Positions 744 to 49,062 of a DNA stretch of 64,000 nucleotides are shown piece after piece. Origin of the DNA: Desulfamplus sp. (lineage in GTDB: Bacteria; Desulfobacterota; Desulfobacteria; Desulfobacterales; Desulfobacteraceae); the NCBI GenBank assembly GCA_015232555.1, contig JADFZJ010000016.1:1-64000 (forward strand), given 5' to 3'. Positions within the stretch are counted from its first letter, which is position 1, and each line of letters starts with the position of its first letter. A program made the position numbers and the translations under genes. Under the pieces are notes generated by a model. That model was given only the letters and a program-made list of their open reading frames with translations, did no database searches and was not told where the DNA came from.

Positions 744-3700
744 CCAGCTTTTTTCAAAAGAGAACGCAAACTGGGAGATATTTACTGATCGTAGTGTTGT
801 TCTGGCTTTACTGTTATCAGATGACGGTTCAACTTTATGGGTTGGAACAACAGGAGGGCTTGAAAAACGTGATGCAGTTACAGGAGAACTCATTCAGGTA
901 TTGAACAATAAAGACGGATTACCTGAAAACTGGATTCACTCTCTATTATCTGATGGAAAAGGAGGGATATGGGTTGGAACAACAGGAGGGCTTGTTAATA
1001 TAAAGTCTGATGGAAAATGGGAAATATTAACAACAAAAAACTCAAAATTACCTGATAACAATATTTATGCACTCCTGTCTGACGGAAACGGAGGATTATG
1101 GATTGGAACACGCTTTGATGGACTTGCACATTTTAAATCAAATCGGACTTGGGAAATATTCAATAAAGATAATTCCAAATTACCTGATAACTGGATAAGA
1201 TCCCTTTTATCTGATGGAGAAAGAGGATTATGGATCGGAACAAATCAAGGCGGTCTTGCCCGCTTGAAATTAGATAAAACATGGGAATTCTTTAATAAAG
1301 ATAACTCTGAATTGCCGGACAATTATATCAATGCTTTCTTATCTGATGGCAGCGGTGGAATTTGGGCTGGAACAGGAGGTGGTCTTGCCCATGTTAAATC
1401 AGACGGGCAACTTGAGATATTTAAAACAGATAATTCAGGATTACCGGGTAACAAAGTTAGCTCCATTTTGTCTGATGGCAAGCACGGGCTTTGGATTGGA
1501 ACTTATTATGGAGGGCTTGCCAATTTAAAATCAGATCGAACATGGGAGATATTTAAAACTGACAACTCGGGATTACCAGAAAATACAATTGAGTCCCTGC
1601 TGTCAGACTCAAGCGGTGGGCTTTGGATCGGAACAAATGACAAAGGGCTTGTCCGTTTTAAATCTGATGGAACATGGAATACATTTCAAGCAGATAACTC
1701 TGGAGTATCAAATAACTGGATAACATCTCTCTTGTCTGACGGCAGTGGAGGAATATGGATCGGAACACAGGAAAGGGGAATTTCCCATTTTAAATCTGAT
1801 GGACAATGGGAGATTTTCACAAGTAGTAATTCAAAATTGCCTCACAATAAAGTCAACACTATGGTGTCCGACGATAACGGAGGATTGTGGATTGGAACAG
1901 ATAAAGGCGGTATAGCCCATTTGAAGACTGACGGCTTATGGGAGATATTTAATAAAGACAATTCTGACTTACCAGAGAACCCTGTTGACTCTCTCCTATT
2001 AGACGGACAGAACGGGCTATGGGTTGGAACTGATGGTGGCGGTCTTGCCCATTTAAAGTCTGATGGCTCTTGGGAGGTTTTCAATAAAGACAATTCAGGA
2101 TTGCCTTCCAACTATGTTTACTCCATCTTGTCAGACCAAAGCGAAGGATTATGGATTGGAACTTATAACGGTCTTGCCCATCTAAAGGCTAATGCGTCAT
2201 GGGAGGTGTTCAATAAAAAAAATTCTGATTTGCCTGATAATGATGTAAACTCTCTTCTGTTAGATGGCAGCGGAGGATTATGGATTGGAACTTCGAGTGG
2301 CGGTCTTGCCCATTTAAAAACTGACGGCTCTTGGGAAGTGTTAAATAAAGACGATTCTGGGCTGCCATCTAACAATGTCCAATATCTCCTATCAAACGGA
2401 AGCGACAGATTATGGGTCGGAACTTGGGGCGGAGGTCTTGCCCATTTTAAGACAGACGGCTCTTGGGAAGTGCTCAATGAAGAAAATTCTGATTTGCCGG
2501 ATAATAATGTCAATTCTCTTCTCTCAGACAGCAGCGGTGGATTATGGGTCGGAACTTATAGCGACGGTCTCGCTCATCTTACCTTCTCCACTTCACAGAT
2601 TCAGGAAGAGCAATATCTCACCGGTGGGCGTGCTGCAATAATCATTGCAGGAGGCGGAAACACTAAAGATAATATTTTATGGGACAGCACAGCAGCTATA
2701 TGTAATTACACCTATAAAATGTTGAACAGACGCGGTTTTTTAAATACAGATATTCATTACATCTCTCCCCAGCCTTTTGCAGATTTCAATGGCGATGGTC
2801 TTGACGATAAAATCGTTGATGCCCCAATTCCAGCGTGCCAGATTCAACTATCAGACATTCAGGCAGCTTTTGACTGGGCAAAAACCAAAGGAGAACTGAA
2901 CCAGCCTCTTTACATCTTTTTTACAGATCACGGCGGAAAGAATCGTCTCCAGCTTGCTCAAGGTGTTTACATTGAGGGTTCAGAACTTAAAACAATGCTT
3001 GACGACTATCAGCAAAGCACAGGAAACAAAGTTGTAGTTGTGATTGATGCCTCGCATTCAGGAACATTACTCCCTTCTCTTGCAGGTAGCGACAGAGCAG
3101 TCATTACAAGTGCCGACGATGGTCTTGCCTATTTTGACCGAACTGAAGACCAGAGTTTCAACTATTTTTTTGCAAAAGGGCTGTTCAAAGGCATGAATTT
3201 CTTTGAAGCGTTTCACGATGCCGTAGGCAAACAAAAAAAACTGCTTGGTAAATTATCAGACTACATAATGGTAACAGAAGAGGATGCTGTCAATTTATCA
3301 CAAGAACCTAAATTTGACGACACAGGAGACGGGTTATACACTATTTGTGATGAAGGCAAATGGCTCAAACAAGTTTCAATTAATGGGAATTTCACAAATG
3401 CGGATATACCCTTGATGGTTGAGCCAGTTACGCAATCTGGCACAATTTCAGCTTCAAACAATTCCGCATCAGAAGCTCAAGTCCCAACCATATTAAAAGC
3501 CAAAGCCACACTTGCAGCAGGCAGAGTAAACAGGGTTTGGGCTGTAATTCGTCCGCCACAGATGGATATTCTTCTTGATAATACAGGCGTTCCGATCATG
3601 GCTTTTCCAAAAGCTGATTTAAGTTTATCCAAAACAGAGGCTGATATTTACGAAGGAAGCTGGAACGGCTTTGTTTACAACGGCGAATTCGAAATAACCT

Positions 3701-4227
3701 TTTACGCAGAAGATAACGAAGGGAACATTGAGGGGAGCGAATCAATAAAACTAACTGTGCCTGATGGTTTGGCTTGTCCGGAAAGAGGAGCGTTGAAGGT
3801 AAATTCAACCAAATCCTCCTATAAGTCTGGTGAAAAATTGAGCGTTTCTGTAACCGAAAATCTTGCTTACGGCTATGACCTTTACGTTGCCCTGTTCATG
3901 CCTGATGGAAACTTTGTTGCACTCAAAAATCCGCTTACATACTTGAATCAGTTGCAAAAAGAGAATTTTAATAGGCTCTATTGGGGCGACAGATGGATAG
4001 AGACAAACAGAAATACGAATATGGGCAGAGCGGTTGATGTTGTTGATATTGTGTTGTCAGAAGAAATTTTATCACAGAACACGGGATATCAGGAGAAATT
4101 GCCTCAAGGTCAGTATTGTGTTTACGCAGCTTTGATTCCAGAGGGTCAAGATTTGATGGTTTCTGCTGAAAAAGGTTTTATTGTGCCTGAAAGATTTGAC
4201 GGGGTTTGTTTTGAGGTTGTGAAGTAA
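694..4227 (+). pseudogene. Two-component-regulator-type beta-propeller plus caspase-like protein, start lost
   Basis: The longest conventional start is TTG at 901 (1108 residues). However, the same frame is open from 694 and encodes another propeller repeat (LWVGTTGGLEKRD) before it, so 901 is not the true start. I count 14 LW(I/V)GT-type repeats, enough for two seven-bladed Reg_prop-like propellers. Then follows a caspase/peptidase-C13-like domain (about residues 580-790 from 901) with a DHGG histidine motif near 676 and DASHSG near 717, where the usual cysteine is serine. Two Ig/beta-sandwich-like C-terminal regions follow. No start codon or signal peptide is seen, because the frame meets the transposase tail. 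It is therefore probably a gene truncated at its 5' end, though expression from TTG 901 is possible. Such proteins are usually exported or surface exposed. Confidence 0.7.
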
Positions 4228-13688: not shown

Positions 13689-13790
13689 GAACATAAGCAG
13701 CTTTGCTGCAATTATTGTTGTATTGAAATTCCTTAATGAGAACATAGGCAGCTTCGATTCAATTATTGTTGAATTGAAATTCCTGAACAA
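13689..13790. repeat. Two tandem copies of a 51-bp dispersed intergenic repeat
   Basis: Copies at 13689-13739 and 13740-13790 share the pattern gaacata(a/g)gcagctt, then caattattgttg(t/a)attg, then aaattcct. Related single copies lie at about 15881-15925 and 49013-49062 in the opposite orientation. Each unit contains short palindromes (GCAGC...GCTGC and CAATT...AATTG). The repeats fill the gap between the EamA and EAL genes. Confidence 0.8.
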
Positions 13791-13807
13791 TAAGATAGTT
13801 TTAATCA

Positions 13808-14750: not shown

Positions 14751-15773
14751 TTAAGAATGCTGGGTGTTCATAAAAAAATTATTCAGAAATGTCAATGAAG
14801 CAAAAAGATGATCAGAATTAAAAACCTCCAAAGATACGACTCCTGTAAACTCTCTGAGCAGATTCATGGTTGGTGCTAACATTGAAGGAGGCGTGTTATC
14901 AAGAGATTGATGGTCTTTTGGAATAAATTGTGAAATGTCTGATGAAAAATCCACTCCATGAAGATGAATTAGGGGAATTCGTTTTCTGTATCGTTCAAAC
15001 AGAGACTTAATATCAAACGAAGCCTCAATCTGGCTGCCATTCTTGTAACCATACCTGATTAAGTGACCTGCATCAATACAGACTGAAAAACTATATTCAT
15101 CAACAATATCAGATATATATTCAAAAGGATAATCCAATGTCTCAATTGATATAATCGAAGGGTCAGAAATAGACGATGCAATAATTTTAAGACTCTGAGC
15201 CGCACGCTCCCGCCAATGATTAATCTGCTCCTGATAGTGGGCATTATTGTTATCATTATTATGGACATGAGCATGATAACTTTTGTTATCACTCTTTTGG
15301 AAGTTATCACTGAGTTTTTGTAAATTGCAATCAATATGCAAAGTGTGTGTTGTAGGGTTTAAAGGTTCGCACAGTTCCAATACCCTTTTGACTGTATCAA
15401 TGGCATTAATCCGTTCTGCCTTTGAAATATCTGTAAGCGAAATATCGACGGGAAGATGGACATTATAGGTTAAATCAAGACTTTGCGAAAGCTCGACAAG
15501 TTCTTTTATCTCTTCTGATGATGGCAGCACTTCAATAGTCTCAATTTTGACTTTCTGTTTTTTGGGAATAAAAGGTCTGCTTTCAAAAATCAAAAGCTCA
15601 ATCTCGTCAAAAAAAGAGCCAAGTCTTTTCACATTGGGGACAACGCGGTCTGGAAATATAAAAGATGTAGTTGCAAGTTTAAACGGAAGATTTTTTGGTA
15701 TGTTAATAATATTCGTTGTTTTAATGATATTTGCACTATTAATTTGTGCTGTAAGATTGTCTCTGTTTTTCAA
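14751..15773 (-). CDS. cbiR: CbiR-like cobamide-remodelling phosphodiesterase
   Basis: A TIM-barrel protein of the AP-endonuclease-2/xylose-isomerase superfamily, 340 residues. The N-terminal block FKLATTSFIFPDRVVPNVKR and the following DEIELLIFESRPF resemble CbiR, which hydrolyses the nucleotide loop of cobamides so they can be rebuilt with another lower ligand. Likely metal-site segments are YNVHLPVD, SIETLDYPFE, CIDAGHLIRYG and LIHLHGVD. I chose TTG 15773 because AAGGAG at 15781-15786 precedes it by 7 nt; ATG 15830 lacks such a site. A His/Asn-rich low-complexity insert sits near residues 157-184. No cobalamin riboswitch is seen upstream. A generic sugar-phosphate isomerase/epimerase is the alternative. 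Confidence 0.7.
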   Translation of the reverse strand: MKNRDNLTAQINSANIIKTTNIINIPKNLPFKLATTSFIFPDRVVPNVKRLGSFFDEIELLIFESRPFIPKKQKVKIETIEVLPSSEEIKELVELSQSLDLTYNVHLPVDISLTDISKAERINAIDTVKRVLELCEPLNPTTHTLHIDCNLQKLSDNFQKSDNKSYHAHVHNNDNNNAHYQEQINHWRERAAQSLKIIASSISDPSIISIETLDYPFEYISDIVDEYSFSVCIDAGHLIRYGYKNGSQIEASFDIKSLFERYRKRIPLIHLHGVDFSSDISQFIPKDHQSLDNTPPSMLAPTMNLLREFTGVVSLEVFNSDHLFASLTFLNNFFMNTQHS

Positions 15774-15880
15774 ACTTTTCTCCTTTTTATAAATTATCAC
15801 AACACTATTTTTGTCTTTATGAACATGCAATCTGCAACAAACTGGGTGAATAATCTGAATAAATATGCTATTTTATTTTA

Positions 15881-15925
15881 TTGCTTAGGAATTTCAATCT
15901 AAAAATAATTACATTGAAAGCTGAC
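15881..15925 (-). repeat. Single partial copy of the 51-bp dispersed repeat
   Basis: Read on the minus strand, it matches the 13689-13790 units from CAGCTTT through ATTATTTTTAGATTGAAATTCCT. It lies between the divergent cbiR-like and HAD genes. Confidence 0.65.
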
Positions 15926-15933
15926 AGAGAAAT

Positions 15934-48985: not shown

Positions 48986-49012
48986 TGGTGTTTTATTTTG
49001 TTTTGGTGAAAA

Positions 49013-49062
49013 ATTTCAATCTAAAAATAATTGGAGCGAAGCTGCTTATGTTCTCATTAAGT
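49013..49062 (-). repeat. Single copy of the 51-bp dispersed repeat
   Basis: On the minus strand it reads TTAATGAGAACATAAGCAGC, then TTCGCTCCAATTATTTTT and AGATTGAAATTT. It closely matches the tandem copies at 13689-13790, including the TTAATGA join between those units. Confidence 0.8.

Follow-up and report, generated by a model that had tools for sequence, protein, structure and literature searches.

A 51-bp dispersed repeat of Desulfamplus as a probable miniature derivative of an IS91-type element

Elements of the IS91 family move without duplicating their target site. MITEs of DDE-type IS are small, non-autonomous intergenic elements made up of the termini of a parent IS. For IS91 and IS801, one account describes a left end that begins with GAAC and carries a stem-loop, GAAC-type targets (for IS801, those named are GAAC, GGAC, CAAG and CGAC), the absence of proper inverted repeats, and action in trans (PMC3189936). 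The same account reports small one-ended derivatives of IS801, and these are described as having no stem-loop (PMC3189936). The related element ISCR1 is described with an oriIS of roughly 100 bp and imperfect 8-bp terminal inverted repeats (PMC13023784). As for bacterial high-copy palindromic repeats, it has been proposed that RAYT enzymes mobilise them as non-autonomous elements (PMC8266576).

We suggest that a 51-bp repeat found in Desulfamplus sp. is very probably a miniature, non-autonomous IS91-family derivative, in which a 32-33-nt ter-like left end (GAAC plus a hairpin) is fused to an 18-nt ori-like right end and the transposase gene has been lost. Like members of the family (IS91, IS801, IS1294 and their ISCR relatives), the unit has a candidate parent that encodes a zinc-ribbon and Y2/HUH transposase, begins with GAAC followed by a stem-loop, has no proper terminal inverted repeats, shows no duplication at the one clean site available (L133/L153), and abuts, at its right end, sequence resembling the first bases of its left end. 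Unlike them, it has mostly TAAAATA-like targets rather than GAAC, GGAC, CAAG or CGAC, and its abundant form here is 51 bp long and carries no gene. It differs from ISCR1 in that its ends are not inverted repeats and in that it keeps 18 nt of the right end, where an oriIS of roughly 100 bp is described (PMC13023784). The miniature IS801 fragments of Pseudomonas syringae (229, 360 and 679 nt) are likewise short mobile IS91-family derivatives with a GAAC-like start, but as described they are continuous right-end pieces that arose through one-ended transposition and were recovered in an assay (PMC3189936), whereas the 51-bp unit keeps both ends, has its middle deleted and exceeds 150 copies per genome. 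With the MITEs of DDE-type IS it shares small size, lack of autonomy, intergenic position and construction from parent ends; it nevertheless has a rolling-circle-type parent, and a MITE in the strict sense is ruled out, the ends (GAACATAAGC / ...CCTGAGTAA) not being inverted repeats and the clean site showing no duplication. With REP/BIME sequences and their RAYTs it shares a link to the HUH superfamily, a hairpin and high intergenic copy number, but it has neither the GTAG-plus-hairpin layout described for them (PMC8266576) nor any linked Y1 gene that we could find. The parts of this picture are already known; in the open-licence literature searched on IS91-type, REP and Desulfamplus repeats, mostly judged from listings, we found no high-copy miniature IS91 element and no both-ended 51-bp IS91-type miniature at REP-like copy number.

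Copies in the window and across the genus

The window is the whole stretch of 64,000 nucleotides analysed (G000:C14:1-64000), taken from a genome of 3.82 Mb in 106 contigs, referred to below as the own genome. An earlier note, made from the letters of the window, had described a 51-bp repeat at three intergenic loci. The repeat is real, and comprises two tandem units, one solo copy and one decayed copy (Table 1). The copy that the note placed at 49013-49062 is present, although at the different, minus-strand position given in the table, and the partial copy placed at about 15881-15925 was also matched on the minus strand; we call the latter decayed, rather than a copy with the full layout, because its GCAGCTT part is lost.

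Table 1. Positions of the repeat copies in the window and of the sequences that accompany them.
Feature	Position	Strand	Remarks
Tandem unit 1, putative 51-bp miniature element	13689..13739	+	13689-13720 identical to parent left end at 31/32 bases; 13722-13739 to right end at 15/18
Tandem unit 2	13740..13790	+	Against parent ends: left 29/32, right 16/18
Hairpin GCAGC-TTT-GCTGC in left (terIS-like) end	13697..13709	+
TAAGATA after last tandem unit	13791..13797	+	Target-like (consensus TAAAATA); read as target, not element
Solo copy	49003..49053	-	Profile match 48999-49053, E 8.1e-14
Decayed solo copy	15881..15931	-	Profile match 15874-15918, E 5.8e-10; left end extrapolated
TAAAATA target-like sequence adjoining right end of decayed copy	15874..15880	-

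The two tandem units (family D9) lie head to tail between an EAL-domain gene and an EamA transporter gene, are 51 bp long each and 84% identical, and meet in the join TTAATGAGAACATA at 13733-13746. Against a profile of 48 copies, which includes the second of these units but no other window copy, they score E-values of 7.6e-18 and 2.9e-18, respectively. The solo copy adjoins an ORF without a Pfam match and has a short ORF and a ferredoxin oxidoreductase gene downstream; the decayed copy falls between a TIM-barrel gene and a HAD hydrolase gene. Measured against predicted genes, the claim that all copies are intergenic holds, except that the decayed copy is overlapped by a 107-aa ORF running antisense to the HAD gene. 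Three further features of the window may be recorded here. A weak partial profile match inside the TIM-barrel gene (14778-14806, minus strand, E 0.0016) is probably chance or a remnant; the stretch 15809-15883, which adjoins the decayed copy, has one match of 84% similarity in each of two other genomes (G001 C29:27497 and G008 C260:45729) and is perhaps another small dispersed element; and the coding repeats in an ORF at 918-2557, at least 11 in number and 129-132 bp long (families D2 and D3), may belong to a beta-propeller sensor protein.

From three loci in the window the earlier note had expected many copies in the genome, and these were found. The own genome yields 29 exact pattern matches against none for a reversed control pattern, and the repeat is therefore not a product of chance; the profile, applied to 150 of 4907 candidates, gave at least 152 matches at E<=0.001. 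About 150 candidates were scored in each genome, so that the large counts for the rest of the genus are lower bounds (at least 151 in G006, 142 in G003 and 116 in G008), followed by 35 in G004, 25 in G007, 7 in G005, 2 in G009, 1 in G001 and 0 in G002, in genomes that are 52-98% complete. At E<=1e-6 and with stricter filters, the repeat is present in 7 of 10 genomes of the genus and in none of 76 other genomes of the family (7/86 in total), and a DNA search recovered it in 7 of 39 relatives, none of them outside the genus. The 95 near-complete units of the own genome have a median identity to the consensus of 90%; the loci analysed there are the best matches and not a random sample of copies. 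Of the 65 units not followed by another, 48 entered the profile alignment and 17, mostly incomplete or more divergent, were dropped; units inside arrays were left out.

A phage or viral origin is rejected: the exact pattern did not occur in viral contigs, none of three pattern matches from a protein search was confirmed, and phage records gave no match. A CRISPR array is likewise ruled out, the units abutting head to tail without spacers.

We also note that one copy occupies the same place in the own genome (L056:1485-1544, minus strand) and in G004 (L064, about 1506-1565, plus strand), in a region that is 93% identical between the two, where other orthologues are 68-82% identical. The best NCBIfam matches of a nearby gene are the magnetosome transporters MamM/MamB, below the cut-off, and G007 has the region without the unit; the region may be a horizontally shared magnetosome-type cluster carrying the repeat. 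Two other dispersed repeats came to light in G004 and G007: one of about 62 bp, at dozens of places in each genome and unrelated to the 51-bp unit (right flank of L109, query bases 2417-2479 of the G004/G007 flank search), and a short palindromic one, whose matches coincide in position on the two strands (query bases 4177-4213, from the right flank of L136).

Boundaries, target and tandem arrays

Across 109 units at 101 own-genome loci (77 solo, 16 first and 16 last units), conservation sets in sharply at base 1 and falls off beyond base 51. The seven positions that follow have the consensus TAAAATA (58-91% agreement at each), and the picture is unchanged when the profile is cut at base 51; more generally, copies sit in front of (T/G)AA(A/C)ATA-like sequence. 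This tail was at first modelled as part of the element, in a 58-nt profile. Because of the conservation drop and of the presence/absence site described below, that model was rejected and TAAAATA is read as target. The 3' flank agrees with GAACATAA, the start of the unit, at 4.82 of 8 positions, compared with 2.93 for the 5' flank and a local background of 2.24. The commonest 3' tetranucleotide is TAAA (27 of 84 solo or last units), which is not among the four named for IS801, and an IS801-type tetranucleotide follows nine of the 84 (seven GAAC, two CAAG); with the profile cut at base 51 the figures are 28/85 for TAAA and 5/85 for GAAC. The longer motif (T/G)AA(A/C)ATA resembles GAACATA.

The presence/absence site, L133/L153, reads TTCTAACAT-TAA-unit-AAATATAAATGG in G004 and TTCTAACAT-GAA-AAATATAAATGG in G007, two genomes that are 88-94% identical in the shared loci compared. 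The G004 unit, 49 bp long through the loss of two bases, is absent from G007, where the flanks join without duplication; on our reading of the alignment, one base substitution stands beside the site. Six orthologous comparisons were made, and this site, which by itself does not tell insertion from deletion, is the sole fully clean one: L113/L175 and L134/L174 show a recognisable tail side in the absence of the unit but differ on the other side, and L136, L131 and L071 are uninformative. The comparisons derive from 14 strong copies in G004 and G007, four of which form two shared pairs (L129/L130 and L135/L124); the flanks of the other ten were searched, six giving an orthologous side and L123, L109, L116 and L132 giving none. 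For the tandem pair of the window, the neighbouring genes are 68-82% identical in relatives, but the two sides were never found together, and so no empty site was recovered there.

The earlier note had taken the tandem state to suggest unit-wise expansion. In the own genome this is not supported: among the 11 of 16 pairs complete enough for comparison, adjacent units have a mean identity of 79.3%, against 78.9% for first and last units of different arrays, and that identity was reached by 70 of 200 permutations (random units of all kinds are 83.3% identical). Because neighbours are no more alike than shuffled partners, the own-genome arrays look like independent side-by-side landings, which a target role of the left end would predict; they may also be old duplications that have since diverged. 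Expansion does seem to occur in a relative, since the array L068 in G006 consists of four nearly identical units, two of them identical, and local amplification therefore also happens. Slippage or unequal recombination of a single unit, a proposal that bears on the arrays alone and is compatible with the unit being an IS91-type miniature, thus has L068 in its favour and the 11 own-genome pairs against it, and we consider it a rather unlikely account of the arrays as a whole.

An IS91-type element bounded by the two halves of the unit

Half-unit matches in G004, a genome of the same genus, led to L250, where an element of 1,572 bp (L250:1076-2647, on G004:C33) opens with the left half of the unit (1076-1107, 32/32 identical to the consensus) and closes, after 1.5 kb, with the right half (2630-2647, 17/18). 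In its interior, three pieces of broken reading frame carry the zinc-binding and Y2 domains of IS91-family transposases (Zn_Tnp_IS91, 3.9e-9; Y2_Tnp, 6.1e-18 and 3.1e-20), one of which, of 153 aa, scores above the curated cut-off of NF033538 'IS91 family transposase' (127.7 vs 125 bits), the other two falling below it. Readable in these pieces are HIH, in NAHIHVIITAGG, and YVGRY, which we take to be the HUH and two-tyrosine motifs. A second transposase-bearing copy in G004 (L304), whose left part is cut by a contig end, has the same right end; its identity is 90% over 1.2 kb and 88% over the searched piece. Five left ends that share at least 57 bp (92-100% identical), one of them in G007, are identical over 33/33 bases behind five different left flanks, and three right ends that share about 80 bp or more precede three different flanks, CAAAATAG, AAACATAG and TACCATAT. 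Since shared ends stand beside different flanks, we regard the repeat halves in L250 as true element ends, and the 51-bp unit, therefore, as 32-33 nt of left end followed by 18 nt of right end; because both of its halves equal the ends of the L250 element, the unit is best read as an internally deleted IS91-type element. As a separate observation, the left ends of the IS91-type element at L251 and L254 follow GACGCACG-type sequence, perhaps a REP-like landing site.

We found no intact element that runs from GAACATAAGCAGC... to ...ATTGAAATTCCTGARTAA; the two G004 copies with a transposase are both broken, and no close relative of the parent transposase was found in the genomes where the repeat is most abundant (G000, G003, G006 and G008). 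In G006 a related right end is present (L300), and no more of the parent was found there. The only Y2 match of the own genome, L261, is about 31% identical and has no unit end. The IS91-type genes of the genus at L256, L257, L259-L262, L264 and L266, several of them at loci cut by contig ends, have no unit-like end at E <0.05; a match at L264 (E 0.05) was judged not to be an end. Plasmid records contain many IS91-type relatives, all of them less than 60% identical to the searched piece, with the best rows at about 40%.

Two unit halves would also bracket the gene if the unit were older and independent and had been split, in one or more copies, by an IS91-type gene landing at base 33. We think this improbable. 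The five left halves are identical, yet all seven ordinary G004 units compared differ from the consensus by at least one base or gap; the hairpin and GAAC would have to coincide by chance with the left-end layout described for the IS91 family (PMC3189936); and the flanks of the three gene-side right ends resemble the target of the small units.

The earlier note had proposed looking for a linked transposase, for example of RAYT type; a transposase bounded by the repeat halves does exist in a relative, but it is an IS91-type Y2 enzyme and not a RAYT. An origin of REP/RAYT or IS200/IS605 type, in which a Y1 (TnpA-REP) transposase moves a hairpin-bearing repeat, would agree with the unit's intergenic position, hairpin and high copy number, and with Y1 matches in 8 of the 10 genus genomes, two of them in the own genome. 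However, profile searches of 20 of the 25 Y1 places in the genus gave one convincing match, L093 (E 3.2e-4), which is a fragment of an IS91-type right end, all others scoring E 0.46 or worse, and seven Y1 loci inspected by eye have other ends that are not repeat-like. With no Y1 gene flanked by the repeat in the places searched or inspected, the RAYT/IS200 link is rejected. Nor do the counts agree: Y1 matches number 4 in G001 and 3 in G002, where the repeat profile matches once and not at all, respectively, and G003 (63% complete) has at least 142 profile matches but no Y1 match. Both halves of the unit being accounted for by the IS91-type element, mobilisation by a Y1 enzyme seems very improbable. 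In the own genome, the Y1 transposase at L084 has different palindromes beside it, adjoining repeats of its own at L084:1150-1430 (GGGCTAAAGCCC / AAGCCCTCTTAAGAGGGCTT), possibly a separate REP system.

The internal palindromes seen in the earlier note correspond to a 13-nt hairpin, GCAGC-TTY-GCTGC, and a weaker second stem that uses tail bases. The consensus folds better than shuffles (z -2.7 to -3.6), but there is little covariation over 47 distinct copies, the score being reached by 188 of 500 shuffles and the most favourable measure by 39 of 500, and no Rfam family matches the unit; a conserved RNA structure is accordingly rejected. An immobile host element under selection (a protein-binding site, promoter part, terminator or RNA hairpin) could explain that folding, the position of 93 of 102 own-genome units with enough flank outside ORFs of at least 100 aa (15% for random positions in the same loci) and the excess of units in gene direction between co-directional genes (40 vs 20 against, p 0.013), but it is hard to credit given the meagre covariation, the lack of an Rfam match, the absence of enrichment between convergent genes (8/91 units vs 17/157 adjacent ORF pairs of the same loci), a copy number that ranges from 0 to more than 150 within one genus (genomes 52-98% complete), and the presence/absence site L133/L153.

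Proposed mobilisation and its significance

For the unit as an IS91-type miniature, we posit the following pathway. An IS91-type Y2 transposase supplied in trans would nick the right end beside its target-like sequence; one strand would be replicated in rolling-circle fashion from the right end to the left end; and replication would end at the left end, which would be joined to a new target. Since the start of the unit, GAACATAA, itself resembles the target, new units could land directly upstream of old ones, which would explain the tandem units and build arrays with a 51-bp period. Three points speak against this account: no intact parent was found, none was detected in the own genome, and the right end of the unit is short. 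We see about even chances that 32 nt of left end and 18 nt of right end suffice for IS91-type rolling-circle transposition and that the left end is a preferred landing site, through which the family builds its own head-to-tail arrays; no IS91-type mobile unit so far described would then be smaller or more abundant. The hairpin, for its part, may not be needed for transposition, by analogy with the small IS801 derivatives, described as lacking the stem-loop (PMC3189936).

In this way, a repeat of REP-like appearance would owe both its halves to the termini of an IS91-type element, and elements of this class also mobilise the genes next to them. The IS91-type machinery may need no more than very short ends, and the likeness of the element's start to its target would offer a simple reason for the tandem units.
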